A DNA stretch of 42,546 bases, taken from contig CAIMVG010000022.1 in the NCBI GenBank assembly GCA_903844845.1, forward strand, positions 1-42,546. The letters are read 5' to 3'. This DNA is from an uncultured Dehalococcoidia bacterium. Lineage in GTDB: Bacteria > Chloroflexota > Dehalococcoidia > Dehalococcoidales > UBA1222. Under the pieces are notes generated by a model, which worked only from the letters and a program-made list of their open reading frames with translations, searched no databases and had not been told where the DNA came from. Each line of letters starts with the position of its first letter. Position 1 is the first letter of the stretch. A program made the translations under genes and the position numbers. Below, one piece after another: positions 14,626-41,912 of this stretch.

Positions 14626-14637
14626 AACTCTTTGTCT

Positions 14638-14710
<73 letters not shown>

Positions 14711-14747
14711 TTTTAAAGCTAAAACCACCGGTGGGCAACCGAGTTGG

Positions 14748-15737
14748 ATGACTCTAGATACACTTACTCGCAGAACTTCTCAGGCACAAACACGCACAAC
14801 TCTAGACCTACTTATTGGCTCTGAAACCCTCGATGGCAGGCTCAAAGCTTTCCTGTTGGCCGGAAAGGTTGAAGGCCTCGCCCCAGACACACTTGAATAC
14901 TACGAATCCACCCTTACGCGCTTCATAAAATGCTGCGCAGAGATGCAGATCACCAAACTCGCGCAAGTGAAAGCGGAGCACATCCGTTTCTTCATGTCGC
15001 GCTTGCAGGAAACCAACAAACCCATTTCGGTGCATTGCTACTACCGCGCAATCAGACGCCTGTTCAACTGGTCGATGACGGAACAGATCATCACGGTCAA
15101 TCCGATGTCGGTCATCCGCCCGCCGCGCATCCCCGAAAAAGTCATCGTCCCTTTCGCCGATGATGACATAAGAAAGATGATCGCTTTGTGCGACGCCCGC
15201 GATTCGTTTTTCGACAAGCGCAACAAAGCTATCATCCTGACTTTTTTGGATTCCGGGCTCCGCGCACTCGAGATGTTTCACGTCAACCTGGCGGACGTCG
15301 ACCTGCAGAACGGCAGCATCATCGTCATGGGCAAGGGCGCGAAACAGCGTTTCGTTCCCATCAGCCACTTCACTACCAAAGCCATCATGACCTATCTGTA
15401 TATGCGGAATGACAGCTACCCGAACCTCTGGCTCAGCGAGGAACACACGCCTCTCAAGAACCCTTGTGCCATCCGTCAGATGATCGGTAAGCTGGCAAAG
15501 CGGGCCGGGGTAACGGGGGTCCGGGCGTCGCCCCATACCTTCCGTCATACCTTCGGGACACGAACGCTTGAAAACGGCGCTAACGTCTTTCAGGTAAAAG
15601 CCCTGCTCGGCCATGCCACGCTGGATATGACGCGCAAATATTCCGCGACGCTGGATAGTCGGCAGGCGGTCGAGGCCCACCACGGCACCAATGGGCACAA
15701 AGGCTTCTCGCCGGTCGAGAACATGAAGCTAAGATAG
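14748..15737 (+). CDS. int: Tyrosine recombinase / phage integrase
   Basis: This 329-residue integrase would insert and excise the element at tRNA-Lys. It has an N-terminal SAM-like core-binding domain (residues about 29-115) and a catalytic domain with R172 (SGLRALE), K196 (GKGAKQRFVP), H263 and R266 (PHTFRH), H289 (LLGHA) and the nucleophile Y298 (TRKYSA), so the full catalytic set is present. Arm-type N-terminal domains are not obvious, as in XerC/D-like phage integrases. A bidirectional-looking terminator follows directly. Confidence 0.95.
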   Translation: MTLDTLTRRTSQAQTRTTLDLLIGSETLDGRLKAFLLAGKVEGLAPDTLEYYESTLTRFIKCCAEMQITKLAQVKAEHIRFFMSRLQETNKPISVHCYYRAIRRLFNWSMTEQIITVNPMSVIRPPRIPEKVIVPFADDDIRKMIALCDARDSFFDKRNKAIILTFLDSGLRALEMFHVNLADVDLQNGSIIVMGKGAKQRFVPISHFTTKAIMTYLYMRNDSYPNLWLSEEHTPLKNPCAIRQMIGKLAKRAGVTGVRASPHTFRHTFGTRTLENGANVFQVKALLGHATLDMTRKYSATLDSRQAVEAHHGTNGHKGFSPVENMKLR

Positions 15738-17383: not shown

Positions 17384-18556
17384 TTAATAGAACCCCATGA
17401 AATTCCCGTCGTCGTCGTAATGCGCCAGCGCTGGCGATTGCGTCGGGTATAGCGGCGTCGTGCCGGCAGGGGTTTTCGACGTGCTGAAGGGCAGTTCCGG
17501 CAGGTTGGTCAGGCCGCCCAGGTATGCCGTCAGCCGGTAGACGCCCGTCATCCTGTTGGCATAATGCCTCAGCGTCGTAACGCGGGTGATAGGGTCGGCC
17601 GGGTAGCCGGTATATGCCATCGCGGTGAACGAGGCGTCCGCCCCGTAAAAGGTTATATTCTGGCCGTTGAACCTGTACTCAGATGCGGCGCGGTAATGGT
17701 AGGTTGCCTCGGGGTCCAGTCCTTTCAAAGTTTGTGCGAAACTTTCACCGGTTTCCTGCTGCGATGAGTTGGTAGTATGCCCGTAAGCGGTAGTCAATCC
17801 CCATTCGAACCAGCAGGAACAATGTACGCCCCCGCCTTTTACGAGCGTGCCGTGCACCGTGGCGCGGTTCCCGAGTTTGTTCGTCGCCGCGCCGGTCGAT
17901 ACTTCCAGGTCGAGTGTGTAGGTGGTCAATAACTGTGGGTACCCGCCACCGCCACTATTCGCCATATAATTGTGAGCCGACATATACACAGTTTCAGCGG
18001 GCAAAATAGGAACATAAGTAACCCCGATTTGGACGGCTCCTGTCCGCTTCCCATCGAATATACTTACCGGCAGGTCTATGTCAGGCCAGTTGAAATCATC
18101 CCAAGTTGGAACATTGTGCGAAGCGATAGTTGGAGAGGAATTTATCACTCCGAAGTCTGACGGAGCAAGTTCATGTGTTACGAGGTCATGGATGCTGTTG
18201 CAGTTTTTTAGGTAATACGTTCCAACGTCGCCACTTGCATAATGAAACTTAACAGATAAAATTGTGGCCGCTTCTGGAACTTTCTCATTGGTATCACGAT
18301 ACGCATAGACACCCCTTACGCAAGCGGAACTAGCGTCACCCCAGTATGCGCCCGCCATCGGCCACGCCCCGCCTCTGAACCCCCATCTGTAATATGGTAA
18401 GTATCCAGGAGTCCCTGAACTCATAGCGGCGGCGGCGGCAATAGTCGGGTTATATTGCGCACCAGTGTTAGGCCAACCCGCAGGACTCCCATCCTCGGCA
18501 TAAATGCTTCGTGGAACAGACCAGTCAATGCTTACTGTGTGTGTTGTGATAGACAT
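17384..18556 (-). CDS. Tail or fibre-type structural protein with Ig/FnIII-like segment
   Basis: This 390-residue protein is rich in Gly, Ser, Thr, Tyr and aromatic residues. The middle (about 225-315) shows a beta-sandwich-like repeat: NRATVHGTLVKGGG, CWFEWGLTTAYG, then LKGLDPEATYHYRAASE, similar to fibronectin-type modules of surface proteins. No enzyme motif is seen. The start ATG shares a base with the stop of the preceding gene (TAATG). Its position at the end of the tail block fits a host-contact or decoration protein. Confidence 0.7.
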   Translation of the reverse strand: MSITTHTVSIDWSVPRSIYAEDGSPAGWPNTGAQYNPTIAAAAAMSSGTPGYLPYYRWGFRGGAWPMAGAYWGDASSACVRGVYAYRDTNEKVPEAATILSVKFHYASGDVGTYYLKNCNSIHDLVTHELAPSDFGVINSSPTIASHNVPTWDDFNWPDIDLPVSIFDGKRTGAVQIGVTYVPILPAETVYMSAHNYMANSGGGGYPQLLTTYTLDLEVSTGAATNKLGNRATVHGTLVKGGGVHCSCWFEWGLTTAYGHTTNSSQQETGESFAQTLKGLDPEATYHYRAASEYRFNGQNITFYGADASFTAMAYTGYPADPITRVTTLRHYANRMTGVYRLTAYLGGLTNLPELPFSTSKTPAGTTPLYPTQSPALAHYDDDGNFMGFY

Positions 18557-19626
18557 TAAGCCCTCGCGTCTTTTATGGCCAATTTGTCATATAGTTCTAT
18601 CCGGCAGTCGTGCGGCACGACGATAGTTGCCGACATGATTGCGGATTTCAGGTGTGTCAGGATGGCAGCGGCCTGGTTCCCGGCATCTCCGGCATTATCT
18701 ATACGCGGGAACATGTAATAAGCCACGATGTTTCCGTCACCGGACGATGCGGTCCCGATATTGTCCCAATCAAGCACATAGCCATCCGCGTCGAGCGTCG
18801 CATTGTAGAAAACCGTCACCTTGTCGGGCATGAGAGCGTTCAGCTTTTCCTGATACTCGTAAAATTGAGGTTTCCTGTCCGAGTAATACGTCATGTCTAC
18901 CGGGTCGTCGATTTGTGGATAGATAACTTTATACTCGAGGCCAGCCTGTGGCCGCAGATAGCTTTTCGTGTGGCTGATGAGCTTGACGATGATATCGTAA
19001 TATCTCTCGTAAGCCCCCATGGTATTCGGCCTGGACGGGTTCCACGTCCCATCGTTGATGATGAAATACGGCAGAAAGGTATCGATGATGTCGTCGTAAA
19101 CGTCTGGCGCGACCAGCGTAAAACCCCCCGGCACAATCGCAAACGCGGTTATCAGTATCAGGTTCAGGAGCGCATAAGGCGTATACGTTCTGTCCCAGAC
19201 GGCGCGGAACCCGGGCGGGGAACCGGTGCTGTCCCATTCCTGCTGTTTGAAGATATGCTGCATGGCGTCTTCGAGCGTCACAGTCGAGACAAGGCCATTC
19301 GGCGAACTCACCCATGTTTGAGATACGACCCAGAACCGTTGCAGCGTCGCGTATTCCGGCGTCCCCTCGACGATATCCCCCCATCCGATGTCGCAGTAAT
19401 AGCCGCGGAGGTCCGCGACTGCCCGGTCGTTGTTCGAGAGTGTCACCATGCAGCCGTCTGCCTTCCCGTAAGTCGTTTCCCACTGGTCGACGATGAGCCA
19501 GCGATCGGAATAGTCGATATGAGTTCCCACTCCCGAGTTCGGTACGAAATCGAGATGGATGTACGGGACCCGGATGCCGTCGATCAATTCCTGCTTTTCC
19601 TGCAGCCCTGCGGATATAGTTCTCAT
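18556..19626 (-). CDS. Baseplate/tail hub-like structural protein
   Basis: This is a 356-residue protein with start at MRTISAGLQEKQ (19626). The open frame extends upstream through the direct repeat into the inserted segment, but that extension (to 19695) is unrelated sequence. The 24-bp repeat carries the native GAGGA site and the ATG. The C-terminal IVVPHDCRIELYDKLAIKDAR resembles the end of phage tail hub/gpD-like proteins, where a late-strand 'P..C.L...D.v.i.D' pattern recurs; this is a weak resemblance. It originally followed the 21493 gene with a TGATG overlap, now separated by the 1867-bp insertion. Confidence 0.7.
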   Translation of the reverse strand: MRTISAGLQEKQELIDGIRVPYIHLDFVPNSGVGTHIDYSDRWLIVDQWETTYGKADGCMVTLSNNDRAVADLRGYYCDIGWGDIVEGTPEYATLQRFWVVSQTWVSSPNGLVSTVTLEDAMQHIFKQQEWDSTGSPPGFRAVWDRTYTPYALLNLILITAFAIVPGGFTLVAPDVYDDIIDTFLPYFIINDGTWNPSRPNTMGAYERYYDIIVKLISHTKSYLRPQAGLEYKVIYPQIDDPVDMTYYSDRKPQFYEYQEKLNALMPDKVTVFYNATLDADGYVLDWDNIGTASSGDGNIVAYYMFPRIDNAGDAGNQAAAILTHLKSAIMSATIVVPHDCRIELYDKLAIKDARA

Positions 19627-19639
19627 CAAGTCCTCGGAT
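19616..19639. repeat. 24-bp direct repeat, left copy
   Basis: This copy is identical to 21483-21506. On the minus strand it includes the last codons and TGA of the 21493 gene, a GAGGA ribosome-binding site, and the ATG of the 18556 gene. The two copies flank an insertion of 1867 bp. Confidence 0.95.
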
Positions 19640-20135
19640 GTGTACTTTGTCAGACACTTTAAGTGCCCAGTTTTGAAACCATAGAGTAGAAACATGCCCG
19701 TACCAGCGTTTTATATCTTAGCCAACAAAATGGTTTTAATAATGGCTCAAGATAGGAAATTTGCCTCTCTAAAGCTGTGGTTCAAGGCTGTAGCATATCC
19801 TCAAGACAGCTTCTTCGAAAGTTAGGCGTTGCAGTCTAGACAGGATACAAGAATGTGTAAGCAAATCTGATCAACATTCTCATACGACAAAGAGATAAAA
19901 TTAGTTATCAAGGTAGAAGTAACCGAAACTCATATTGGCAGCAATACTCACGGCCAGCGTGAGCGCGGTTCTAAAAACAAGGCAATGCGCGAGCCGTTGT
20001 GGTATTTGATGTAAGAGCCAGGGGAACATCTGCAAGAATACGCAGACGAATATATCTTTAGTGTATAGCTACAGGAAAGACGAATAGCCTATATTTCAGG
20101 CTATACTTGAGCGCGTGTTTAAGATGCTTCGGGCA
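19640..20135 (+). pseudogene. Decayed IS1595-family transposase
   Basis: One reading frame from 19640 gives YFVRHFKCP (zinc-ribbon start), FYILAN..., FASLKLWFKAV, RMCKQI and IKLVIKVEVTETHIG, then HGQRERGSKNKA. These match the IS1595-family order of CPxC, K.WF.A, TAWRM and VEVDETYIGG with RGRGSKNKA. In-frame stops occur at 19682, 19820 and 19868, the catalytic DET has become TET, and the frame ends at 20014. The family C-terminus follows at about 20030-20130 (HLQEYADEYIF, then after a frameshift YRKDE and PIFQAILERVF), so the central domain is deleted. The gene cannot make active transposase. It begins directly at the left direct repeat. Confidence 0.8.
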
Positions 20136-20247
20136 AGTTTTTGCCTTAACTACCTTACTCAAAGCGTGGAATATCTAAATCTTAGTTGCGCCAAACTCGT
20201 AATCCTCTAAGTGGCGCGCTAGTTTGTCTTTTTATCGATTAACCGCC

Positions 20248-20505
20248 TTAGAGGCCATATTTACTAACCAAGTCCAGCAATCCTGGTTTACCTATTCCAC
20301 TTTGTTTCGGGCCTAGAATGGCAGATAATGTGCCATCCGGAAGTTCTGCCCTTGTGTCCGGAATAATTGTACTGGTCTTTCTATCACCGTTCTGTTTTAC
20401 GATGGATATTCCGTGTCTAGTTCTTCCACAATTCTCCCAACCATCCCGCACAAAAAGTTTGATTAGTTGTTTACCAGTAATCGCGGGAAGTTTGGTGTAA
20501 TGCAT
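20248..20505 (-). CDS. hicA: HicA-type mRNA interferase toxin
   Basis: This 85-residue protein belongs to the HicA (YcfA/dsRBD-like) fold, whose members cleave mRNA. LPAITGKQLIKLFVRDGWE matches the first helix and strand, TRHGISIVKQN carries the conserved catalytic His, and LPDGTLSAIL corresponds to the family 'L..GTL..IL' motif. It starts 4 bases after the stop of hicB, so expression follows the antitoxin. The order here is antitoxin first, the reverse of the E. coli hicAB operon. The length is slightly longer than the minimal 60-residue forms. Confidence 0.88.
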   Translation of the reverse strand: MHYTKLPAITGKQLIKLFVRDGWENCGRTRHGISIVKQNGDRKTSTIIPDTRAELPDGTLSAILGPKQSGIGKPGLLDLVSKYGL

Positions 20506-20509
20506 GACT

Positions 20510-20857
20510 CTAACACATGCTAGGTTCCGCTATGGGGAGCCTATGCACACTCGGGCGAATATAGGTATTTTCTCTCTTAACCGGCGGTATTTTGATAGTT
20601 TCTATTTTCGGTTTAACCGGATATATTATGATATTGTTCTCTTTAAAAAAACGTTCTCTTTCTCCAGTTCGCTCTAAAGTGTTTAAGTGTAAAATAACCA
20701 ACTCATCTAGCCGCTTATTCGCCTCTGGGAAAGACCGATTGAATGTTGAAGTTCCTAATTCTTGGCAAGTCCCAACCCATTGTCTTTTTTCCTTGTGAAA
20801 CTCAAAAGTCAGAGAGATATACCCCTTAGACTCAATTGATTTATCCATTTTCTCCAT
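20510..20857 (-). CDS. hicB: HicB-family antitoxin
   Basis: The 115-residue partner of HicA. The ATG at 20857 (MEKMDKSIES) is preceded by AGGAGG at 9 bases; an upstream GTG at 20878 overlaps that site and is not favoured. The RNase-H-like HicB strand-turn-strand SLTFEFHKEKRQWVGTCQELG, followed by helix FPEANKRLDELVILHLNTLER, is typical. The C-terminal 45 residues are basic and rich in Pro/Lys with no clear HTH or RHH, so DNA binding is uncertain. It probably neutralises HicA and may autoregulate through the palindromes at 21000-21074. Confidence 0.82.
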   Translation of the reverse strand: MEKMDKSIESKGYISLTFEFHKEKRQWVGTCQELGTSTFNRSFPEANKRLDELVILHLNTLERTGERERFFKENNIIIYPVKPKIETIKIPPVKRENTYIRPSVHRLPIAEPSMC

Positions 20858-20999
20858 CTTGTGCTTCCTCCTGCTCACCCATTTTCATGGGGCTTAGGCC
20901 ATCGACAGACCCCTGCCATCATCATTTTTAACAACAAAAAAGAGTAGGGCAGCACCTCCATGCCACTTACCTACCTCATATATGTACAAAAAGTAACAC

Positions 21000-21074
21000 T
21001 TGGTATACCAACCTGTCAAGGCCACTTACGCTCAAGAACAGGTTAAATTTTTGTTAAATATTACCAAATATTTA
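21000..21074. promoter_or_regulatory. Cluster of three palindromes upstream of hicB and orf86
   Basis: Three perfect palindromes are seen: TTGGTATACCAA (21000-21011), AACCTGT...ACAGGTT (21010-21016 with 21038-21044) and TAAATATT-ACCA-AATATTTA (21055-21074). They lie in the 271-base gap between divergent hicB and the 21129 gene and look like operator sites for one or both promoters. A TACAAT box at 21097-21102 could be the -10 of the plus-strand gene. The rest of the gap shows nothing else. Confidence 0.5.
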
Positions 21075-21128
21075 CCACGATCGTTATCATGAGTGCTACA
21101 ATCTAAGCATAGTTTGTAGGAGGGCGAT

Positions 21129-21389
21129 ATGTCTAAACTAGACCCACAGGTTCAAGTCAAAGCCATGGATTTTGCATTAAACTGGACTTCCCGAAATGTT
21201 GCTAATAACTCATCAATTGAGACTTGGGCCAAAAAATTTGACGAAGCCTATAAAGCTATCATTGTAACACTGGCTGAGGCTGAGGAAATGAAGCCTCTAT
21301 CTAAAGTAGAGACAAGCCCCAGCATTTTTACAGAAGCTTCTTTCGTTTCACATGCTTTGACTATACCCATTGAAAAATCAAGGGCGTAG
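21129..21389 (+). CDS. Small hypothetical protein (orf86) in the inserted segment
   Basis: This 86-residue protein starts at ATG behind a near-perfect AGGAGGGCGAT site. The N-terminal 55 residues are helical and amphipathic (VQVKAMDFALNWTS, IETWAKKFDEAYKAIIVTLAE); the last 30 residues are Ser/Thr-rich and less regular. No known family. It is divergent from hicBA. The 3' third is overlapped on the opposite strand by another ORF with a strong ribosome-binding site, so the true C-terminus or even the gene could be disputed. Confidence 0.55.
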   Translation: MSKLDPQVQVKAMDFALNWTSRNVANNSSIETWAKKFDEAYKAIIVTLAEAEEMKPLSKVETSPSIFTEASFVSHALTIPIEKSRA

Positions 21390-21412
21390 ATAGTTATTTC
21401 TTTGTCTGTCAT
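21248..21412 (-). CDS. Possible 54-residue protein antisense to orf86
   Basis: An ATG at 21412 is preceded at 6 bases by AGGAGGTG, the best ribosome-binding site in this segment. The product begins MTDKEITIYALDFSMGIVKACE and ends MIAL. Its first 20 residues show faint similarity in pattern to the start of orf86 (V.VKAMDFALN). It overlaps orf86 for 142 bases. It could be the start of a second, inverted and truncated copy of the same kind of gene; expression is unproven. Confidence 0.35.
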   Translation of the reverse strand: MTDKEITIYALDFSMGIVKACETKEASVKMLGLVSTLDRGFISSASASVTMIAL

Positions 21413-21482
21413 TTTAATCACCTCCTGTCTTTACGTGTCTCTATGAGAACATCACTTTAATGATTTACGGGGCACTCTAACA

Positions 21483-21506
21483 ATAGTTCTCATCAAGTCC
21501 TCGGAT
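21483..21506. repeat. 24-bp direct repeat, right copy
   Basis: This copy is identical to 19616-19639 and spans the end of the 21493 gene, with its TGA at 21493-21495 and the vestigial ATG of the next gene at 21491-21493. The copies are 1867 bp apart. It marks the original gene junction before the insertion. Confidence 0.95.
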
Positions 21507-23163
21507 AAGTCTGGAATGTTTTAGGTCTGGCAAGCGCTTTTAGTTCCGCTTCGGCTTTCTGGACTTTGTTGCGGCCCCATTTTGTGAATTGCATTTGTGT
21601 ATTCGCAATACTCAGCCGGGATGAAGCTTCGCGCACATAGCAGGTAGCCTCGTTCAAATACCCGCTGGCAGTCGTTAGTTCATGAGCCGCTGTTCCCATG
21701 TAGATGTTGACGGTCTGGCTTATCTTCGAAAGCAAGGCCCCGGCCTGCCCGATGTAGGTATTGGCCGCGCTGAGTTCAGCTGAACCGAGCCCCCTGTATT
21801 GGCCTGCCTTGCCCTCGTTGGCCGATAGGGTGGTCTTTATCTCATTGAGCAAACCAGAGACGATATTGAGTTGATTCGAGGCCAGTGTCCCTTCCTGCGA
21901 TATGGCAGTCGAGTCATTGAGGATAGTCCTGATCTCGTTTATGCGGCTGGTGGCGGCGCCGAAACCGCCGCTGGCCGATGAATGTAAGCCCGTTTCTGCG
22001 GTCGCCCAGGTCGGGATTGTGTTATTCAAGGCACGCGCAGCCGCCAGGTCATCTTCGGAGTCGCTTATTTGGGTGCTGACATCGGATAGCTGGCTGCTGA
22101 AAGCAGCGACCGCCGTCGCCAGTTTAGTTCTGGCCGCGCCGACATCGGTTATGGCCAGACCGAGCTGGGTACTGGCGCTCGACACATCTGCGGTTATCGC
22201 TGCGGCCGCGGACTTGCCCGAGGCGAGACTTGCCATCGCTGTCGTGATGGTGTTTCCGACGGCGGTGATAGCGGTACCGGCGGATGAAAGGTCTGTCGAA
22301 ATGGCGTTTCTAGCAGCAGTGATATCGGTTGTCGCCTGCCCTATCCGCGTAGCCATGCTGTCAACGGCAGAATTGACCAGCGCGGCGGCATCGATGGCCG
22401 CCTTTATTTGCGTCCTGCCGTCGCCGATATTATTGAGCGCGACATTGCCCGCGGCCAGGTTGACGACGATGGGTTCGAGTTCCGGTGTCAGGGTAGAGGC
22501 CGAGGTATCCAGTATGTGAAGTTTTAAGCAGTAAAGGACAGCTTGCTCACCGGCGGCGGGCGTCGCGTCGGTTTCAATCGTGGCAATATTTGAAAAGAGC
22601 GTAACGTTGTGAAATTCCTTCGGGGATTTCCCCGTCGGATATTCGGCCTTAAGGATATGCCGGATCCCCTCAATGCCAGTGACATCAACATCGGTGGATC
22701 GGGCCGTTAACAGGACTGTCTCTTGTGACTCGCAGAGCGAAGACATCGAGACTCTGATAGCGGCATAACCGAGTTCCTGTGCGATAACCACGTCCGAGAA
22801 GATCGCATTGCCCGTATCTTCGAGGACGATAGAAACCTCATCGATGAGCGCCCCGATTGATTTGCCGGTACTCGGAGACCTGGCGGCCAAAACGAACGAG
22901 CCGTACTGTATCGCCGTGCCGGCGAGCGTATCGTTGGTTACATATTTACGAGTGTAAGTTCCGGTCTCGGCATCGGACGGTGAAAGCCAGTTGTAATGAT
23001 AAATTCCCGTGCTGTCTTTGGTCATCGCCTGGCCGGTGACAACATCAACCCCGGACGGCGCTGTTATAGTGATAAGGATTGAAGTGTCAGGATCATAAAG
23101 TACGCCGCCTGCGTTTTTGACGTCGATGGAGTTCGGTACTGTTTCGCCGCGGTCAAATATCAT
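21493..23163 (-). CDS. Large tail/baseplate-type protein with Ig-like N-terminus and helical repeats
   Basis: This is a 556-residue protein. Residues 1-95 look like a BppU-type N-terminal beta domain (VPNSIDVKNAGG, ITITAPSGVDV, GIYHYNWLSPSDAETGTYTRKY). Residues 230-540 are Ala/Ser/Thr-rich amphipathic helix with a loose repeated pattern (ITAARNAISTDLSSAGTAI, ITDVGAARTKLATAVAAF, SQISDSEDDLAAA), likely a trimeric coiled-coil stalk. No enzyme motif is present. It lies 4 bases after the repeat-rich gene at 23167 and originally overlapped the hub-like gene start. Confidence 0.72.
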   Translation of the reverse strand: MIFDRGETVPNSIDVKNAGGVLYDPDTSILITITAPSGVDVVTGQAMTKDSTGIYHYNWLSPSDAETGTYTRKYVTNDTLAGTAIQYGSFVLAARSPSTGKSIGALIDEVSIVLEDTGNAIFSDVVIAQELGYAAIRVSMSSLCESQETVLLTARSTDVDVTGIEGIRHILKAEYPTGKSPKEFHNVTLFSNIATIETDATPAAGEQAVLYCLKLHILDTSASTLTPELEPIVVNLAAGNVALNNIGDGRTQIKAAIDAAALVNSAVDSMATRIGQATTDITAARNAISTDLSSAGTAITAVGNTITTAMASLASGKSAAAAITADVSSASTQLGLAITDVGAARTKLATAVAAFSSQLSDVSTQISDSEDDLAAARALNNTIPTWATAETGLHSSASGGFGAATSRINEIRTILNDSTAISQEGTLASNQLNIVSGLLNEIKTTLSANEGKAGQYRGLGSAELSAANTYIGQAGALLSKISQTVNIYMGTAAHELTTASGYLNEATCYVREASSRLSIANTQMQFTKWGRNKVQKAEAELKALARPKTFQTYPRT

Positions 23164-29391: not shown

Positions 29392-29727
29392 ATGATGCCG
29401 TTTAAATTAGGCCCTATGGAATTAATAATCATTTTGTTTATAATCCCTTTTTATTTGTTGCCCACGATCATTGCCGTTGTCAGGCATCATCCAAATATTT
29501 TGCCCATCGTACTCATCAATATTTTGCTCGGATGGACTTTTTTAGGTTGGGTAGGTGCTGTGATTTGGTCTGTCTGGCAGTTTAATGGGAATGTTCCATC
29601 AAACGTGCCTATATCGAACAATACCGCACGAAAGAACAACAACGCTCTTGCAATCGCCGAAGAACGATTTGCCAGGGGTGAGATTACATCTGATGAGTTC
29701 GACAAGATAAAGAGCAGGTTACTTTAA
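29392..29727 (+). CDS. Superinfection immunity-like membrane protein with SHOCT domain, copy 1
   Basis: This 111-residue protein starts with two consecutive ATG codons; AAGGAG lies 5 bases upstream. Residues about 10-68 match the Imm/superinfection-immunity family: a hydrophobic helix, a short polar turn (VRHHPNILPIVLINI), then LLGWTFLGWVGAVIWSVW. In T4, Imm blocks DNA entry of related phages at the inner membrane. The C-terminal 28 residues (AIAEERFARGEITSDEFDKIKSRLL) are a SHOCT motif. Its neighbour 22 bases downstream is a close paralogue. Confidence 0.82.
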   Translation: MMPFKLGPMELIIILFIIPFYLLPTIIAVVRHHPNILPIVLINILLGWTFLGWVGAVIWSVWQFNGNVPSNVPISNNTARKNNNALAIAEERFARGEITSDEFDKIKSRLL

Positions 29728-29749
29728 ATGCCTTTAAAGGGAGTTAAAA

Positions 29750-30076
29750 ATGCTGGGTAAAATTGGCCCGATGGAATTAGCAATTATAGGCATACCTTTT
29801 TACTTCGTACCTCTAATCATAGCCGCAATAAGGCACCATCCAAAAATGCTGGGTATTTTCCTTGTCAATTTTTTCTTGGGATGGACATTTCTAGGGTGGG
29901 TTGGGGTTTTAATTTGGTCGCTCTGGAAAATCGATAGAATACCTTCCTCGAATGCATCGATTGAAGTTCCTTCTTCTCCGCGTAAAGCGGGTGCCCTTAC
30001 GATTGCCGAAGAAAGGTTTGCCAAGGGTGAAATCACGGCTGACGAGTTTGATCGGATAAAAAGCCGTTTAGTCTAG
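29750..30076 (+). CDS. Superinfection immunity-like membrane protein with SHOCT domain, copy 2
   Basis: This 108-residue paralogue of the preceding gene has the same plan: GPMELAIIGIPFYFVPLIIAA, IRHHPKMLGIFLVNF with the GWTFLGWVGVLIWSLW motif, a variable linker, and a SHOCT tail (IAEERFAKGEITADEFDRIKSRLV). GGGAG lies 7 bases before the ATG. The linker is the most divergent part. Tandem duplication followed by divergence is likely; together they would form an exclusion cassette of the prophage. Confidence 0.82.
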   Translation: MLGKIGPMELAIIGIPFYFVPLIIAAIRHHPKMLGIFLVNFFLGWTFLGWVGVLIWSLWKIDRIPSSNASIEVPSSPRKAGALTIAEERFAKGEITADEFDRIKSRLV

Positions 30077-30105
30077 TTTATCGGGTCAGTTGCGTTGACT
30101 AATCG

Positions 30106-30564
30106 TTGGGTCGAATTTTGAAACATAAAAATCCACAAGTTCAGTTGTGCCTAGAATGTGCGTATTTCTATTCTGGCAAAGACGGAATAAGACAAGTAAT
30201 ACCCGTGAATGTCAGAGCGGATATATTAAAGGGGCTCACACCTCAACACACAGCTCAGGGAATGCCGGCGATTCCGGCTTGTTATAAGGTTCTGAACGAG
30301 GATGTATTCCGGAATTATGAAACGCAACCAGATGCTATTACCCGTGTCCAAGTTCTCAAGACCGCCAAGTGCCCGGGTAAACATATTTACAGCCGATTTC
30401 GACATGGCGTTAATCCGGATATAGCATGGCGGGAAGAACAGGAACTGAAAATCCATACTCAAAATGCCAAATTGTTATTTTTTAATGTGGTGTTATCTGT
30501 TCTTACTTTGGTATTAGTTGGCTTGACGGTGGCTCTGATCTATTGGACTCGACGGTTGGTTTAG
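30106..30564 (+). CDS. Membrane-anchored hypothetical protein after the immunity pair
   Basis: This protein is 152 residues from a TTG start; a second TTG at 30118 is an alternative start. A cysteine-containing segment (QLCLECAYFYSG, then PACYKVLNEDVF and TAKCPGKH) suggests possible metal binding. Residues about 126-148 form one C-terminal transmembrane helix (VVLSVLTLVLVGLTVALIYW), giving a tail-anchored topology. It is 29 bases after the second immunity gene and probably co-transcribed. Function is not recognised; an exclusion role is a guess from context. Confidence 0.6.
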   Translation: MGRILKHKNPQVQLCLECAYFYSGKDGIRQVIPVNVRADILKGLTPQHTAQGMPAIPACYKVLNEDVFRNYETQPDAITRVQVLKTAKCPGKHIYSRFRHGVNPDIAWREEQELKIHTQNAKLLFFNVVLSVLTLVLVGLTVALIYWTRRLV

Positions 30565-32420: not shown

Positions 32421-32480
32421 ATGGCCCCAACATTCAAAACACCAGAAGATAGTGAACAGTGGGCAGAGAAAAAGGGTTAA
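32421..32480 (+). CDS. 19-residue leader-like ORF
   Basis: ATG at 32421 behind GGGGAG codes for MAPTFKTPEDSEQWAEKKG and stops 5 bases before the ATG of the next gene. It could be a leader peptide coupling translation, or the remnant of a longer upstream gene. No sequence family. Confidence 0.4.
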   Translation: MAPTFKTPEDSEQWAEKKG

Positions 32481-32485
32481 GAGAA

Positions 32486-33946
32486 ATGGTCTCAGAAAAT
32501 AGCGCTGGAGCCAACGGCAAGCACCTTCCAACCTGCTCTTGTCAGGATTGCCGAGAGGAAAGATTAAAAATACTAAAGGAGCAAAAGCCCCCTAGTCAGG
32601 TAACAATATGCCCAAGATGTAAGCGCAAATCGCTTTGGTTCAATACTTATAATCATGTTTACGAATGCCTTAACCTGGAATGCAAAGCAACAAGCACGAG
32701 TCCCAATGACATAGCACCTGGCATGCCTGAGCCACCGCCAAGTCGACGCCCATCCCCCCCAATTATTCCGTCAGCAAGACCAAATCGAAAGACCAAATCA
32801 TCGGGTGGGCGTGTTGCGGCCATAATAGTTGTCGTAGTTCTTGTTTTTGGCGGGCTGTATGCTATTGGGGTAAATTCGAATTCGCCGTCATCCAATGCGG
32901 CGATTGTCAAATCCCCTAATACATCATCCACGACCTATTCGCCAGTCGCATCCTCTGCGTCTTCTTCGACGCCAACCTCTTTAACTCCGGCAACAACCAC
33001 GAAAATACCTTTAACAACGATACCGCCAATAACTTACTCGACTTTAACAACGACTGGCATCCCGCCAACAACCACGACCACTATACCTGTTGCAACGTAT
33101 TCTGGAATTAACCCAACAACCGGGAAATTCGGGAGTTATTACTTAGGTTTGGTGCTCGACAACGGTTCCTATGTAAGAGATAGTTATGGAAATCCAGTAG
33201 TATTAATAAACAATTACAATGCGACGAATCCCACGTATTCTCAACTCATGAGTTTTCTGAAGCAGGATCCAACGGATACTTTGCCATACCAAACTGCCTT
33301 TGCTAACCAGAATCTTCCTAATACGTGGACAGGGCCAGTAAAAAACTATGTGAATCTGCCATTGATTCAAACTGATATTCAAACTAACCAACCATATCCG
33401 AGCGTGCCAAGAATATGCGCTGACTTCGCTGAGAGGCTTCATAACGCGTCTGAAATGGCAGGCATAAATTGCGGTTACGTTCTCGTGGGCTTACAAGGGG
33501 TAATCGGAGGTCACGCTCTTAACGCGTACCAAACAACTGATAAGGGTTTGGTTTATATCGATGATACTGGTGCGACACCAGCGCTGTCTTCAACCGGTGC
33601 ATTACCAACAACAAATTATTATGGGCTTTCAACAACTAACGACAAGGAGGCTTACATTCAACAAGGCCAACAACTGGGGTTGATAGATATTAACTCTGCA
33701 CCTTCCTTCGTCACAGACTACGTTGGATATCAATCCTGGGTTTCGCTCAAGGCTCAATTTGATAGTCTTATCATTCAGTATAACCAATTGGCTGCCGGGC
33801 AGGTGACTGTTTCTCAAGATGTCTATGCCAAATTGCAGGCAATAAAGGCTCAGCAACAGGCATTAGCGAATCAACTAGGTGGATTTTTCCTTCCCATGGG
33901 AATTGTAACAAGCTTTTCAGTAGTTTGGGAAGGAACCTGGAATTAA
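32486..33946 (+). CDS. Membrane protein with zinc ribbon, S/T-rich spacer and transglutaminase-like domain
   Basis: This protein has 486 residues; ATG at 32486 is preferred to the in-frame GTG at 32459. Domains: C18/C21-type plus C42-C45...C61-C66 zinc ribbon, a Pro/Arg-rich segment, a transmembrane helix at about 109-127, an unstructured Thr/Ser/Pro spacer at 130-205, then a papain-fold transglutaminase-like domain (LMSFLKQDPTDTLPY, RICADFAERLHNASE, GGHALNAYQTTD, GLVYIDDTG) with C311, H343 and D359/D360 as candidate triad. The zinc ribbon would be cytoplasmic and the enzyme domain outside. It is on the opposite strand to the late genes and AT-rich, thus a moron; it may modify the cell surface. 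Confidence 0.78.
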   Translation: MVSENSAGANGKHLPTCSCQDCREERLKILKEQKPPSQVTICPRCKRKSLWFNTYNHVYECLNLECKATSTSPNDIAPGMPEPPPSRRPSPPIIPSARPNRKTKSSGGRVAAIIVVVVLVFGGLYAIGVNSNSPSSNAAIVKSPNTSSTTYSPVASSASSSTPTSLTPATTTKIPLTTIPPITYSTLTTTGIPPTTTTTIPVATYSGINPTTGKFGSYYLGLVLDNGSYVRDSYGNPVVLINNYNATNPTYSQLMSFLKQDPTDTLPYQTAFANQNLPNTWTGPVKNYVNLPLIQTDIQTNQPYPSVPRICADFAERLHNASEMAGINCGYVLVGLQGVIGGHALNAYQTTDKGLVYIDDTGATPALSSTGALPTTNYYGLSTTNDKEAYIQQGQQLGLIDINSAPSFVTDYVGYQSWVSLKAQFDSLIIQYNQLAAGQVTVSQDVYAKLQAIKAQQQALANQLGGFFLPMGIVTSFSVVWEGTWN

Positions 33947-35286: not shown

Positions 35287-35764
35287 CGTAACGCACTTCG
35301 ACGATCTGCGGCCCCCCGTCCTTGCCGCATATTTCCTGCTTGTCGCTGAATCCGAGGATATTCTTTGACAGCCATATCTGCATGATGATGTTGGGTTCGC
35401 GCCCGCCGGTGAAGACTTGCTTCCCGTTTTTATATACCGGCTGGTTGAACGTGTCCAGCTCCGGGGTGCCCGGGCATCCTTTGGCAGATTCCCACATGAG
35501 GCTGCGCAGGCTGGTCTTGCCCCTGGCCTTGCCGTCTTCGTATTTTTGGAGGAAGTCCGGGTCGTTCTTCTTGTGGTTCGTGATGGTAGAGCGGTTTACT
35601 CTGAGTTTGGCCGCTATCTCTTCGTCTGTGCACTGATCCTCAAGGAGTACCTGCATCTTTTGCATCTGTTCTTCGGTGAATTTTATAGCAGGCCGCCCGC
35701 CGTGGTTCGGCGCGGCTGTTTCGCTAGGTTTTTCCGGGATGATGGGTTTATCGTTTTCAGTCAT
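35279..35764 (-). CDS. terS: Terminase small subunit
   Basis: This 161-residue DNA-recognition subunit begins at MTENDKPIIPEK (35764), with AGGAG 7 bases upstream; the ATG at 35785 lies before that site. The HTH (DEEIAAKLRVNRSTITNHKKNDP, about residues 50-75) and a helical KARGKTSLRSLMWESAKG segment for oligomerisation are typical, with a C-terminal beta segment. It is the first gene of the late block and divergent from the restriction-modification locus. Confidence 0.82.
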   Translation of the reverse strand: MTENDKPIIPEKPSETAAPNHGGRPAIKFTEEQMQKMQVLLEDQCTDEEIAAKLRVNRSTITNHKKNDPDFLQKYEDGKARGKTSLRSLMWESAKGCPGTPELDTFNQPVYKNGKQVFTGGREPNIIMQIWLSKNILGFSDKQEICGKDGGPQIVEVRYDG

Positions 35765-35802
35765 GATTTTCTCCTGTGTCGTCATAGCGCGTTTCCCTGT
35801 GT

Positions 35803-35882
35803 GTCATTGCGAAGCCACGCAGTGGCTGTGGCAATCTCGTTCCCTATCCCCTGTCATGCCGGAGCGTACATCCGGCATCCAT
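35803..35882. repeat. Composite dispersed repeat, copy B
   Basis: The same series of parts as 26718-26804: GTCATTGC, a hairpin (35813-35818 with 35822-35827), GTGGCAATC..CGTTCCC, spacer, and a second palindrome (35856-35863 with 35871-35878) ending ATCCAT. It lies in the 208-base divergent gap between terS and mod, a likely junction of modules. Confidence 0.75.
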
Positions 35883-35920
35883 TCGCCTCATCCCGTTCTC
35901 TTATTTTTATCTTTCGGCAA

Positions 35921-35929
35921 TGTTATACT
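35921..35929 (+). promoter_or_regulatory. Extended -10 promoter of the restriction-modification locus
   Basis: TGTTATACT has the TGN extension plus a near-consensus -10 at 35924-35929, 43 bases before the mod start. Extended -10 promoters can act with a poor -35, and none is clear here. Confidence 0.5.
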
Positions 35930-35972
35930 GGTGACGCTAATTCGTTCACGACTGCCCACGGAGGATATGATA

Positions 35973-37883
35973 ATGACCGATCAACCGGAAAGACTTGACC
36001 TGGGGTCCCCCGATATCGCTGCGAAAAAGATACAAGATCTCTTATTTTTATTTCCCGAGATTCGAACTGAGGATAGCAAAATAGATTTCGACCGTCTCAA
36101 GTCGGTATTGGGTGAGACGATTGATATTGGCAAGGAACGCTACGGCATGAACTGGCCAGGCAAAGCTGCCTGTTTCAATACGATTCAGCGACCTAGTATG
36201 GCTACTCTCCGTCCCGCTCCCGAAGAAAGCGTCAACTTTGATACCACAGAAAACCTCATCATTGAAGGAGACAATCTTGAGGTTTTAAAACTTCTCCAGA
36301 AGTCTTATTTGTGCAAAATCAAGATGATCTATATTGATCCGCCCTACAATACGGGGAATGATTTTATATACCCGGATAACTTTACCGAGAGCTTGCAGAC
36401 CTATCTGGAATATACCGGACAAGTGGGCACTGAAGGAAAGAAATTCGGAACGAACATGGAAACGGACGGCCGCTTTCATTCCAAGTGGATGAATATGATG
36501 TACCCTCGTCTTTATCTGGCGAGAAATCTGCTCAGAGAAGACGGGGTAATCTTTATATCTATCGATGATGGCGAAATCGATAATCTTAGAAAAATCTGTA
36601 ATGAGGTTTTTGGGGAAGAGTGCTTCGCTGGTTGTGTCACTCGCGTTACAGGTACACCAACTGGCGGGGGTAATAAGGCTTTGGTCAACGAAATCGATTA
36701 CGTCCTTGTCTATTTTAAGGCTCCAGACGTCAAAATCGAAGGTTTACCATTTACTGAAGATGATGCAGAAATCTACACGAAGAATGATGAGGATGGGTCG
36801 TATCTTACTCGCCCGTTACGGAGGACAGGCGGTGAAGACCGTCGCGAGGATCGTCCAACAATGTACTTTCCCCTGTTAGCGCCTGACGGACAAAAAGTGT
36901 ATCCCATTGCGCCAGCAGGTTACCAAAGCAGGTGGATCTGTGGCAAAGATAGATATGATGAACTTGAACGTGCAGGTCTAATAGAATGGAATAAAGTCAA
37001 AAAAAACGATCATGAAATATGGCAGGTTTATCAGAAGTTCTATCTGGAAGGCCGTCTCAAGCAACCGTCAAATCTTTGGTCTGAGTTGGAAGGGAATAAA
37101 AAAGCCACACGCGATTTAAAAATTATGTTTGACGGCACAAAAATCTTCAATTTCCCGAAACCCATCGGTTTGCTCAGACAAATAATCCAACTATCTGCCG
37201 ACGAAACACAGTCAATCGTACTCGACTTCTTCGCCGGTTCAGGCACCACTGGACATGCGGTCATGGCCCAGAACGTCGTCGACGGCGGCAATCGTCGCTA
37301 TATTCTTGTCCAGCTTCCGGAACAACTTGATATTGAAAGTAAAGTCCAGAAGATACCAGCAGAATTTTGCGATAAACTGGGCATCCCTCGCAACATCGCG
37401 GAGTTAACCAAGGAACGCCTGCGTCGGGCTTCGAAGAAGATACGGGAAGAAAACCCCATGTTCGCGGGTGACCTTGGTTTTCGGGTCTTCAAGCTCGCTG
37501 AATCCAACTTCAAGCCTTGGAACGCGCAGGGAGCGCAGGATGCGCAGACGCTGGAGAAGCAACTTGATTCTCACATTGACCACATTCGCGAGGATCGCAG
37601 CCCTGAGGACATTCTCTATGAAATTCTCTTGAAAAGTGGCTTTTCACTAACGATGCCCGTTGAAAACATAATCCTTGCTGGCAAGACGGTGTATAGCGTG
37701 GCGGTTGGGGCTATGCTTATTTGCCTTGAGAATCAAATTACAATTGAGCTCATCCGTAGTATTGCAGAAAAAAAGCCTGAGCGAGTGGTTTGTTTGGACC
37801 AAGGCTTTGCCGGTAATGACCAGCTTAAAACCAACGCGGTTCAAACGTTTAAAACGCGTGGCATCACATTTAGAACAGTCTAA
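35973..37883 (+). CDS. mod: Type III restriction-modification DNA methyltransferase (Mod)
   Basis: The 636-residue adenine-N6 methyltransferase and specificity subunit. The start at MTDQPERLDL has GGAGG at 8 bases; the frame upstream (to 35676) lies across terS and is not coding here. The order of motifs is beta class: DPPYNTGND (catalytic, residues 122-130) precedes LDFFAGSGTTGHA (AdoMet-binding, about 413-424). A target-recognition region lies between them, and the C-terminal 160 residues are variable. Coupled with rhuM and res downstream, it forms one plus-strand operon that can modify the host and, with Res, cleave foreign DNA. Confidence 0.94.
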   Translation: MTDQPERLDLGSPDIAAKKIQDLLFLFPEIRTEDSKIDFDRLKSVLGETIDIGKERYGMNWPGKAACFNTIQRPSMATLRPAPEESVNFDTTENLIIEGDNLEVLKLLQKSYLCKIKMIYIDPPYNTGNDFIYPDNFTESLQTYLEYTGQVGTEGKKFGTNMETDGRFHSKWMNMMYPRLYLARNLLREDGVIFISIDDGEIDNLRKICNEVFGEECFAGCVTRVTGTPTGGGNKALVNEIDYVLVYFKAPDVKIEGLPFTEDDAEIYTKNDEDGSYLTRPLRRTGGEDRREDRPTMYFPLLAPDGQKVYPIAPAGYQSRWICGKDRYDELERAGLIEWNKVKKNDHEIWQVYQKFYLEGRLKQPSNLWSELEGNKKATRDLKIMFDGTKIFNFPKPIGLLRQIIQLSADETQSIVLDFFAGSGTTGHAVMAQNVVDGGNRRYILVQLPEQLDIESKVQKIPAEFCDKLGIPRNIAELTKERLRRASKKIREENPMFAGDLGFRVFKLAESNFKPWNAQGAQDAQTLEKQLDSHIDHIREDRSPEDILYEILLKSGFSLTMPVENIILAGKTVYSVAVGAMLICLENQITIELIRSIAEKKPERVVCLDQGFAGNDQLKTNAVQTFKTRGITFRTV

Positions 37884-37893
37884 GGGAGCTGCT

Positions 37894-38934
37894 ATGAGCG
37901 ACGAGATAGTACCGCAGGAAAATGACATCATTTTCTACTCTACGCCAGAAGGCAATGTAGTCGTTGAAGTCGTTTATTCGGATGAATCATTCTGGCTGAG
38001 CCAGAAGAAAATGGCCGAGCTATTTGGGGTCGAAGTTAGTACCATCAATTATCATATCAAGGAAATTTATTCTGCCGGCGAACTCAAATCGGAGGCAACT
38101 GTTCGAAAATTTCGAATAGTTCAAGATGAAGGGGGGCGGCAGGTAACTCGCGAAGTGGATTTGTATAACCTTGATGCCATCATTTCAGTAGGATACCGCG
38201 TCAATAGCCGCCAGGCCACTCAATTCCGCATTTGGGCAACGGACACGCTCCGAGAGTTCATTATCAAAGGTTTTGTCCTGGACGACGAGCGTCTCAAACA
38301 GGGAAAACGTTTCGGCAAGGACTATTTCGATGAGTTGCTGGAACGTATCAGGGAAATTCGTGCCAGCGAACGTCGTTTTTACCTCAAGATTACCGATATT
38401 TACGAACAATGCAGCGTTGACTACAACCGTGAGGCGGAAATAACTCAAACTTTCTTTAAAACCGTACAGAATAAATTACATTGGGCCATCACAGGAAAAA
38501 CCGCTGCTGAGCTTATTGCTGAAAGGGCGAGCGCTGCCAAACCACATATGGGCTTGCAAACCTGGAAGAACGCCCCTCACGGCAAGGTCATGAAATCCGA
38601 CGTCAGCGTCGCCAAGAACTATCTTGAAGAGAAAGAGCTCAAAGAACTTGAGCGAATCGTCACCATGTACCTTGATTACGCAGAAAATCAGGCCGCCCGC
38701 CGAATACCTATGAAGATGACCGATTGGATAAAGAAGCTTGATGCCTTTCTTACATTCAATGAATATCAAATTCTGGATGACGCCGGGCATGTTTCCCATG
38801 AAGTCGCGGTAAAATTGGTCGAGGAAGAATACGGCAAGTTCCGTATAATTCAAGACAGAGATTACGAGAATGATTTTGAAAGGGAAGCAAAGAAGATCAC
38901 CGAGTCTCATAAACCTGCCAAGAAAAAGGAATGA
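37894..38934 (+). CDS. RhuM-family protein in the restriction-modification operon
   Basis: This is a 346-residue protein of the RhuM (virulence protein, Fic/DOC-associated) family. FWLSQKKMAELFGVEVSTINYHIKEIY is an HTH-like DNA-binding start; RQVTREVDLYNLDAIISVGYRVNS with the following RQATQFRIWATDTLREFI is the family core. The C-terminal part is helical and basic. GGGAG lies 5 bases before the ATG, and it ends with ATGA overlap into res. RhuM genes are known from pathogenicity and defence islands but lack an assigned biochemical function. Its position between mod and res suggests co-regulation. Confidence 0.9.
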   Translation: MSDEIVPQENDIIFYSTPEGNVVVEVVYSDESFWLSQKKMAELFGVEVSTINYHIKEIYSAGELKSEATVRKFRIVQDEGGRQVTREVDLYNLDAIISVGYRVNSRQATQFRIWATDTLREFIIKGFVLDDERLKQGKRFGKDYFDELLERIREIRASERRFYLKITDIYEQCSVDYNREAEITQTFFKTVQNKLHWAITGKTAAELIAERASAAKPHMGLQTWKNAPHGKVMKSDVSVAKNYLEEKELKELERIVTMYLDYAENQAARRIPMKMTDWIKKLDAFLTFNEYQILDDAGHVSHEVAVKLVEEEYGKFRIIQDRDYENDFEREAKKITESHKPAKKKE

Positions 38935-41912
38935 AGCTTCAATTCGATCCCAATCAACCCTTCCAGCTTGCCGCTATGGCTGCGGTAACTGAACTGTTCG
39001 AAGGCCAACCTCAGGGGCCCCCGGAATATTCCGTTATCAAGTTAGGCGAAATGGGTGGTATCTTTGCAGGACAACATCAAACAGAGTTGGGCGCCGGCAA
39101 TAGCCTGCTGTTAGCCGAAGACAAATTGTTATCCAACACCCGGGCTATCCAGATTCGCAATGACATTGAAGTGGTTGATACTTCAAAGCCACTTGAAGCC
39201 TGGGATATTTTCGACGGCCCCGCTAACAAGACCCGCAGATGTCCGCATTTCTCGGTTGAAATGGAAACCGGCACTGGCAAAACTTATGTGTACCTTCGAA
39301 CTATTTTCGAACTGTCCCAACGATACGGTTTTCAGAAGTTCATTATCGTCGTTCCGAGCATCGCTATTCGCGAAGGTGTCCTCAAGAACATCGAGATTAC
39401 CGCTGAGCATTTTCGAGCTATATATAACGGCCTTCCCTTCGAGCATTTCGTTTATGACGCCAAAAAGGTGAATCGCCTGCGTCAGTTTGCGGTAAGCAAT
39501 AACCTGCAGATATTGATTATCAATATCGACGCTTTCCGTAAAAATTTCACGGGCACGGAGGCCGAACAGAAGAGTAACGTTATCTACAAAGAAAGCGACA
39601 AACTTTCAGGGCGTCAACCCATTGAGTTCGTGCAGGCGGCCCGCCCTATCGTAATAATTGATGAACCTCAAAGCGTGGATAGCACCGAAAAATCGCAGGA
39701 AGCTATCAAGGCTCTGAATCCTCTGTGCACGCTCAGATATTCAGCTACACACCGCAATCCTTATAACCTCGTTTATCGTCTCGATCCCGTCCGTGCGTTC
39801 GAACTTAAGTTGGTGAAACAAATTGTGGTGGCCAGCGCCACTGCCGAAGGCGGGGCAAACGATGCTTTCGTGCGTGTGGAGAGTATCGATTATAAGAATG
39901 GTATCAAAGCTAAATTACGTATACTCGCACAGACAAACGATGGGCCGAAAGAAAAATCCATTACGGTTAAAAATGGTGCGGATCTTTTTGTCGTCTCAAA
40001 TGAGCGGGCTAGTTATCAACAGGGTTTTTCGATTGCCGAAATCAATGCCGAGCCTGGTAACGAATTTATCAGATTTAGTAATGGCCGCGTACTCCGATTA
40101 AACGAAGAAAGCGGCGGGCAACGCGAAGATATCTGGCGTACGCAAATTAAACACACGATCAAGAAACACCTTGAAAAGGAATTATTGGTACGAGCACGCG
40201 GTATCAAGGTATTGAGCCTGTTTTTTGTTGACCGTGTTGCCAATTACCGTGATTACGACGAAGCCGGACAACCCGTCAAAGGGAAATTCGCGCATGCTTT
40301 CGAGACCGAATTATTGGTTTTTGCCAAAGAGGAACGTTATAAGGAACTGGATTGGCTCAAATGGCCGATAGAAAAATTACATGATGGTTATTTTGCCCAA
40401 GACAGGAAAGGTGTCTACAAAGACACCCGCGGCGATACCGAAGCCGATGATAAAGTCTACGACCTTATAATGAAAAAGAAGGAGCAGTTGCTTTCGACGG
40501 ACGAACCTCTGCGCTTTATCTTTAGCCATTCCGCGCTGAGAGAAGGTTGGGACAACCCTAACGTTTTCCAGATATGCACGCTTAACGAGACAAGAAGCTC
40601 CGTAAAAAAGCGGCAGGAAATTGGGCGTGGTTTGCGACTGCCCGTAGATCAGAACGGGTTGCGCGTTTTCGACGATTCGATAAACAAACTATATATCATG
40701 GCTAATGAAAGCTATGAAGATTTTGCCCGCGCGTTACAGACTGAATACGAGGAAGATTGTGGCGTCACATTCGGCAAGGTTCCGATTACCGCGTTTGCCA
40801 AGCTGATGCGAATCGTTGATGGCATGGAGAAACCCATTGGGCGCGAACATGGCGAAGCCATACAGGCAAATCTAGTCAAACAGATGATGATTGACGTCGA
40901 CGGACGTATACAACCCAAATTTGATCCGCAGGGTAAAGATTTTAACTTGGAATTGCCTGAGTCATACGTTGACCTTACTTCACAGGTAATCGACTTGTTA
41001 TCATCCTATCAAACGGAGCGTCATATTAGTAAAGACAAAGATGAAGGGCCTAACCGTCTCAAAAAGGAAGTTAAGTTAAGCCCCGAGTTCAAGGCTTTGT
41101 GGGACAGAGTTAAGCCTAGGACTACCTACCGCGTTGAGTTTGATACGGAAAAGCTAGTCGTGAAAGCCGCAGACGCTCTTAAGCACATGAGTAAAATTGA
41201 ACTGCCGAAAATCAGCGTAATAACAGGTCGGGTTGGCGTCACAAAGGCTGGTGTAACTTCTGCGGCGATAGGCGTGTCAGAAGAACAAATTTCAAATACC
41301 GCGATTCAACTGCCCGACTTGCTAACATATTTGCAGAACGAGACAGAGTTAACGCGTTCGACGCTTGTACGAATATTGAAGAAATCGGGCCGCCTGGGTG
41401 AAATTTTCAATAATCCCCAACGCTTCATGGATGCTGTGGCCGCAATTCTTAAATATGAATTGCATCGCCTTATTGTGGATGGAATCAAATATGAATTAAT
41501 CCCTGGGTCCGGATCAGATGCGGAATGGGAACAGATCTTGTTCAAAAACGAAGAACTGATCAACTATTTATCCGCTTTGAAGGTGAACCATTCTATCTAT
41601 GAGTATGTGGTTTATGACTCAATTATCGAGCGCGACTTTGCCAAGGCTTTGGACAAACGAGAGGATATCAAACTATTCGTAAAATTGCCCGGCTGGTTCG
41701 AGATAGATACTCCCGTCGGCAAATATAACCCTGACTGGGCAATCGTGAGACAAGATGGACAGGCGTTTTACTTGATTAGAGAGACTAAAGCAACGTTAGA
41801 TTTTCTAAAGCTTCGAACTGATGAGGCTGATAAGGTCAGATGTGGGCAACGTCATTTTGAATTACTTGGAGTCCCTTTTGCAGTCGTTACGAACGCAGAC
41901 CAAGTAACTTAG
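38931..41912 (+). CDS. res: Type III restriction endonuclease subunit (Res)
   Basis: This 993-residue helicase-nuclease pairs with Mod to cut DNA with unmodified sites. SF2 motifs include Walker A METGTGKT (111-118), motif II IIDEPQ, LRYSATHRNPYN as motif III, and HSALREGWDNPNVF with IGRGLRLP as motifs V and VI. The C-terminal nuclease pattern NPDWAIV...FYLIRETK places D935, E951 and K953 in a PD-(D/E)XK arrangement. No frameshift or stop is seen, so the enzyme is likely active. It overlaps rhuM by 4 bases. Confidence 0.95.
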   Translation: MKLQFDPNQPFQLAAMAAVTELFEGQPQGPPEYSVIKLGEMGGIFAGQHQTELGAGNSLLLAEDKLLSNTRAIQIRNDIEVVDTSKPLEAWDIFDGPANKTRRCPHFSVEMETGTGKTYVYLRTIFELSQRYGFQKFIIVVPSIAIREGVLKNIEITAEHFRAIYNGLPFEHFVYDAKKVNRLRQFAVSNNLQILIINIDAFRKNFTGTEAEQKSNVIYKESDKLSGRQPIEFVQAARPIVIIDEPQSVDSTEKSQEAIKALNPLCTLRYSATHRNPYNLVYRLDPVRAFELKLVKQIVVASATAEGGANDAFVRVESIDYKNGIKAKLRILAQTNDGPKEKSITVKNGADLFVVSNERASYQQGFSIAEINAEPGNEFIRFSNGRVLRLNEESGGQREDIWRTQIKHTIKKHLEKELLVRARGIKVLSLFFVDRVANYRDYDEAGQPVKGKFAHAFETELLVFAKEERYKELDWLKWPIEKLHDGYFAQDRKGVYKDTRGDTEADDKVYDLIMKKKEQLLSTDEPLRFIFSHSALREGWDNPNVFQICTLNETRSSVKKRQEIGRGLRLPVDQNGLRVFDDSINKLYIMANESYEDFARALQTEYEEDCGVTFGKVPITAFAKLMRIVDGMEKPIGREHGEAIQANLVKQMMIDVDGRIQPKFDPQGKDFNLELPESYVDLTSQVIDLLSSYQTERHISKDKDEGPNRLKKEVKLSPEFKALWDRVKPRTTYRVEFDTEKLVVKAADALKHMSKIELPKISVITGRVGVTKAGVTSAAIGVSEEQISNTAIQLPDLLTYLQNETELTRSTLVRILKKSGRLGEIFNNPQRFMDAVAAILKYELHRLIVDGIKYELIPGSGSDAEWEQILFKNEELINYLSALKVNHSIYEYVVYDSIIERDFAKALDKREDIKLFVKLPGWFEIDTPVGKYNPDWAIVRQDGQAFYLIRETKATLDFLKLRTDEADKVRCGQRHFELLGVPFAVVTNADQVT

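Follow-up and report, generated by a model that had tools for sequence, protein, structure and literature searches.

Insertion of a predicted hicBA toxin-antitoxin module between two overlapping prophage tail genes, with a 24-bp duplication of the gene junction

Background

Two tail-region genes of a prophage in an uncultured Dehalococcoidia bacterium are separated by a segment of foreign DNA, and the same short sequence, carrying the stop codon of one gene and the start codon of the other, stands at both ends of this segment. How did foreign DNA enter between overlapping genes without the loss of either? The prophage lies in a window of 42,546 nucleotides, the whole stretch of DNA that was analysed (contig CAIMVG010000022.1). 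An initial annotation of this DNA held that simple IS1595 transposition does not explain the arrangement and suggested that some other route may be directed at gene junctions.

Papers that cite Nobusato et al. (2000) describe insertion with long target duplication in the chromosomes of Helicobacter, where it is tied to restriction-modification genes (PMC1643837, PMC3031569, PMC3154945). As described there, it involves a selfish addiction-type module, a duplication that exceeds those of most transposons and varies in length, and no known dedicated transposase. The segment described here shares the module type, the long duplication and the lack of a known dedicated transposase.

Results and discussion

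The gene junction is present twice in the window

The direct repeats at 19616-19639 and 21483-21506, both ATAGTTCTCATCAAGTCCTCGGAT, are identical over 24 bp and are the only exact direct repeat pair of at least 18 bp in the 42.5-kb window. The distance of 1867 bp given for them in the initial annotation is correct as the spacing from start to start; the inserted DNA between them amounts to 1843 bp (19640-21482). GC content drops to about 0.38-0.44 in the insert, compared with 0.50-0.62 in the flanks, and alignment with empty sites (see below) yields the same limits. On the minus strand either copy reads ATCCGAGGACTTGATGAGAACTAT, with GAGGA at positions 5-9, TGA at 12-14 and ATG at 14-16, the stop and the start overlapping by one base (TGATG). 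The upstream gene (556 aa, 21493-23163, minus strand) ends in the first copy (21483-21506, minus strand) with ACT TGA, and GAGGA and ATG are present there as well. The second copy (19616-19639, minus strand) supplies the ribosome-binding site GAGGA and the start ATG of the downstream gene (356 aa, 18556-19626, minus strand). Since each copy holds stop, GAGGA and ATG, both tail genes were left whole after the insertion, as had been proposed.

The genome is a draft of 29 contigs, and a chimeric assembly could produce such a picture. However, assembly k-mers are usually longer than 24 bp, the joints on either side are exact with respect to the genes, and a paralogous module of the insert is found elsewhere in the same genome, which makes an artefact of this kind scarcely credible.

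Relatives carry an empty site

In three relatives, namely a second related prophage in the same genome (contig C3) and two IMG/VR contigs (L022, L023), the junction 24-mer is single and the insert is absent; sequence comparison places these single copies at L021:10156-10179, L022:6658-6681 and L023:6358-6381. The tail genes of the C3 prophage join at one ATTCGAGGACTTAATGAGAACGAT, and its alignment with the window runs continuously across the junction on both sides. With the polarity judged from these three empty alleles (n=3), the insert is derived and the 24 bp represent a duplication of the target. The placement between two tail genes, as first described, is thus upheld by empty alleles; no relative was found with a doubled 24-mer and no cassette, and among the relatives at hand nothing marks the segment as ancestral. 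Position 22 of the 24-mer is T in both window copies and G in all three empty alleles, so the insertion and the copying are relatively recent.

Homologous exchange with a cassette-bearing phage sharing the 24 bp, or repeat-mediated recombination that removed an ancestral cassette from each of the three relatives, was considered as an alternative. The flanks are mosaic in identity, a 24-bp repeat permits precise deletion, and repeats, mostly shorter than 30 bp, flank 10-18% of variable segments in bacteria (PMC2884548). Yet exchange shifts the original duplication to another phage and leaves it unexplained, and IMG/VR yielded no phage carrying the cassette. Loss would take about three independent events: L022, the closest relative by the region of the downstream gene (5.6% distance, compared with 16-21% for the others), is also empty, so that a single gain is the more economical account, as compared with three exact deletions. 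We therefore regard exchange or loss as distinctly unlikely.

A comparable case is known from the mycobacteriophage LRRHood (GQ303262), in which we confirmed perfect 29-bp direct repeats with 1327 bp between the copies. The repeat flanking its gp43-46 segment is reported to be single in relatives, and the authors of that study favour homologous exchange with a phage that already carried the segment (PMC3029335). Like the present insert, LRRHood has a foreign segment (about 1.3 kb) within perfect repeats, which fall towards the 3' end of the upstream gene; unlike it, the LRRHood segment carries a stolen repressor, and its repeat regenerates no overlapping stop/start junction.

The insert holds a dead IS1595-family remnant and a predicted hicBA module

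The contents listed in the initial annotation (an IS1595 remnant, hicB-hicA and one or two small ORFs) are present; the first two were recovered by tblastn, by a match to PF07927 close to its cut-off and by a structure model of HicB. The transposase remnant (19730-20123, plus strand) was detected with the intact transposase of G046/L005 (tblastn, E about 1e-5). Recognisable are residues about 64-139 and 229-292 of the intact relative, interrupted by stop codons; the N-terminal part and the catalytic middle are missing. DNA identity reaches 70% over 187 bp. To the right follows a small companion ORF (LEDYEFGATK; 20100-20258, minus strand), likewise reduced to a remnant, whose counterpart is convergent to the intact IS1595 transposase in G046, another genome of the same order.

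An element of this family might have brought in the segment, by transposition or as a circular form, with hicBA as passenger. IS1595 elements with passenger genes resemble the insert in that transposase remnant and companion ORF adjoin hicBA, and an offset inverted repeat, TTAGAGTGCCCC / TTTAAGTGCCC, is shared by the two ends of the insert. Since the two 24-bp copies have stayed identical, the decay seen in the transposase must have preceded the insertion. The left 90 bp of the insert contain no recognisable transposase N-terminus and no IS1595 end, and comparison of the insert ends with the termini of about 23 IS1595 loci stayed at chance level. Target duplications of IS1595 elements are about 8 bp long, as against 24 bp here. 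The dead transposase, the unrecognisable IS ends and the duplication length argue against IS1595 transposition in cis, in agreement with the initial annotation, and make the passenger scenario as a whole improbable.

The toxin gene hicA (20248-20505, minus strand) encodes 85 aa and matches PF07927 with 26.6 bits, slightly under the curated Pfam cut-off of 27 bits (E=6.3e-6). Its product shares 47 of 85 residues with a paralogue in the same genome (G000:C12), and His31 is conserved in this paralogue and in L024. The antitoxin gene hicB (20510-20878, minus strand), assigned by structure model and family alignment, encodes up to 122 aa from a GTG start at 20878, internal ATGs being possible. HicB gave no match in Pfam. 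Its structure model (mean pLDDT 81) has the HicB antitoxins 6g1c, 6g1n and 4p7d among its best solved neighbours (Foldseek probability 0.99 for 6g1c, with weak E-values), and 54 of 117 residues are identical to the C12 paralogue. The partner of HicA thus has a predicted HicB fold, and the module is a predicted hicBA toxin-antitoxin system, its function judged from sequence and predicted structure.

Upstream of hicB, a region with a TTGACA and the palindrome TTGGTATACCAA (20896-21073, minus strand) is 76% identical over 178 bp to the region upstream of the hicBA paralogue (G000:C12; L020:4758-4930). Between the two loci the HicB and HicA proteins share no more than about half of their residues, so conservation of the upstream region is at least equal to that of the genes. 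It is likely, judging from these sequence features, an autoregulated promoter of hicBA. The region was not found by DNA search of 100 relatives. The upstream regions of both hicBA copies of the genome also have in common a possible leader ORF of 28 codons (MEVL...CRWP).

The remaining coding capacity is small. An ORF of 86 aa (21129-21389, plus strand) resembles in its first ~55 residues a 67-aa ORF in G014, another genome of the order; no relatives of it were found in the phage collection or in IMG/VR. A convergent ORF of 57 aa on the opposite strand overlaps it by 142 bp within 21129-21421. By eye, each has a good ribosome-binding site; it is unlikely that both encode real proteins over the overlap.

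The ends of the insert give no convincing sign of a mobile element

No convincing terminal inverted repeats were found at the ends of the insert. The inverted match between the two ends reached p=0.02 as a gapped local alignment and p=0.49 over 150 bp in another test. Neither the own genome nor 100 relatives yielded a further copy of the cassette at other loci, and motifs of the insert ends recurred in IMG/VR and in the own genome only at chance level: there were one 18-bp and one 17-bp exact match in IMG/VR, neither with further similarity, and a 15-bp match in the own genome that was judged to be chance. Apart from the IS1595-type trace, the insert contains no transposase. In the own genome, no match to PF12762, to rve (PF00665) or to an ISNCY_2 transposase (NF033594) was obtained, and an Rfam search of 19500-21600 gave no match.

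A long-duplication transposase acting in trans on a non-autonomous transposon could, in principle, have left 24 bp. The long-duplication subgroup of the IS1202 family generates target duplications of 16-28 bp, a range that includes the 24 bp seen here, and its ends begin with 5'-TGT (PMC10132070); both ends of the insert are readable as TGT if the repeat is counted as 23 bp. A member of the ISNCY_2 family (NF033594) from the same order, L065 (G111:C96), has TGT ends and a 16-bp target duplication. The subgroup is further characterised by terminal inverted repeats of 22-29 bp with most positions matching and by a DDE (rve-type) transposase of 394-507 aa, neither of which is present in the insert. 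As 24-bp terminal repeats the ends are poor, the best local match being short, offset and weakly significant, and IS1202-type termini were rejected. Given also the lack of a suitable transposase in the insert and in the own genome, and of further cassette copies, mobilisation in trans is unlikely.

If the insert were circularised, its joined ends would form a hairpin whose stability exceeds that of 99.4% of randomly joined ends (p=0.006, uncorrected; several ideas were tried). The hairpin prompted us to consider an integron-like cassette, which was rejected as integron insertion gives no 24-bp duplication and the core site, inspected by eye, is mismatched. A further reading, which we consider highly improbable, is that the insert represents a small mobile cassette of an undescribed type: such a cassette would transport toxin-antitoxin genes, always duplicate ~24 bp of its target and perhaps pass through a circle with a hairpin at the joined ends.

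The integrase of the prophage was considered as well. A tRNA-Lys and the prophage tyrosine integrase (14637-15737, plus strand) mark a probable attachment end whose sequence is unrelated to the 24-bp repeat; the tRNA-Lys itself (14637-14711) is the likely attachment site, and the opposite attachment end lies beyond the window. Nothing similar to the 24-mer occurs at any other place in the window, and the integrase adjoins the tRNA-Lys; the repeat was thus rejected as a secondary site of the integrase.

Other inserts in the phage group

The sister contig L022 carries an insert of ~2.6 kb (L022:8876-11535) where the next tail gene ends. The 3' end of that gene is duplicated imperfectly (33/35 bp) and flanks the insert on both sides. 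This insert is more complex than the one in the window: its two ends hold apparent parts of one small gene in permuted order. Duplication lengths in the phage group are thus 24 bp in the window and an imperfect 35 bp in L022. When further blocks in the window phage and in C3, L022 and L023 were searched for the same mode of insertion, only the L022 case was found; beside the restriction-modification block a single 10-bp match was seen, and no convincing flanking duplication was present at the remaining blocks. Flanking duplication is therefore not the rule for gene capture in this phage group.

Blocks of plus-strand genes at 29392-30564 and 32459-33946 lie amid minus-strand structural genes; C3 does not align there, and flanking duplications are absent. 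In a Type III restriction-modification locus (35676-41912), the genes for the methyltransferase and the restriction subunit are separated by one that is RhuM/PDC-S05-like, and the C3 stretch matching this locus is about 6 kb shorter.

A model for capture and survival of the junction

Taken together, we favour a reading, with a probability of roughly 60%, in which the 1843 bp of foreign DNA were captured by non-transpositional illegitimate recombination at the tail-gene overlap and were kept through the copying of the junction and through addiction. We infer the joining chemistry and both selection steps as follows. The source would be a piece of foreign DNA, similar to that of the host lineage, with the IS1595 remnant, hicBA and the small ORF. 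Its two joints would fall 24 bp apart on the target, so that the intervening 24 bp are copied. A break with 24-nt overhangs that are filled in, followed by end joining, would achieve this, and the host genome encodes a full-length Ku, so end joining at a staggered break would be available. Alternatively, replication may depart from the phage template and re-enter it 24 bp upstream (template switching), with the same outcome in sequence. The event was probably random both in place and in duplication length.

Because stop and start overlap as TGATG, an insertion without a copy of at least 10 bp would deprive either the upstream gene of its stop or the downstream gene of its initiation region. 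The smallest junction-saving duplication, GAGGACTTGA (10 bp), is contained in the 24 bp. A copy reaching from GAGGA through TGATG would provide the full stop of the upstream gene and the full ribosome-binding site and start of the downstream gene, and the insert could persist; hicBA, as an addiction module, may then resist later loss of the insert. The scarcity of flanking duplications at most other insert or replacement blocks checked in the phage group speaks against this capture model, and the inverted-repeat signal at the insert ends, with its hairpin (p=0.006, uncorrected), could point to an element of an undescribed type.

The recreated junction is what selection would leave, and hence no targeting of gene junctions is needed. 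The dedicated route suggested in the initial annotation is not supported: the ends recur nowhere among the sequences searched, usable terminal inverted repeats are lacking, and the search for the cassette at other loci came back empty.

Conclusions

The segment belongs to a kind of insertion that is already known and rarely documented, and it is a clean example in a prophage. Two marks of insertion with long target duplication are seen: the flanking repeats are single in relatives without the insert, and 24 bp is longer than usual for the sole transposase trace, which is of the IS1595 type. In comparison with the published examples, as far as the citing papers describe them, restriction-modification genes in Helicobacter chromosomes are replaced here by hicBA in a prophage tail operon, with a duplication of 24 bp. 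Phage morons likewise are foreign blocks with their own promoter between genes that are contiguous in relatives; unlike in the present insert, a flanking duplication is not among their defining features.

At this locus a capture event is seen while still young: both flanks are preserved, and empty alleles are at hand from a sister phage and from the second prophage of the same genome. The case illustrates how foreign DNA can enter a compact operon of overlapping genes at no cost to either gene, and it extends insertion with long target duplication from the restriction-modification genes of bacterial chromosomes to a predicted toxin-antitoxin module of a prophage.
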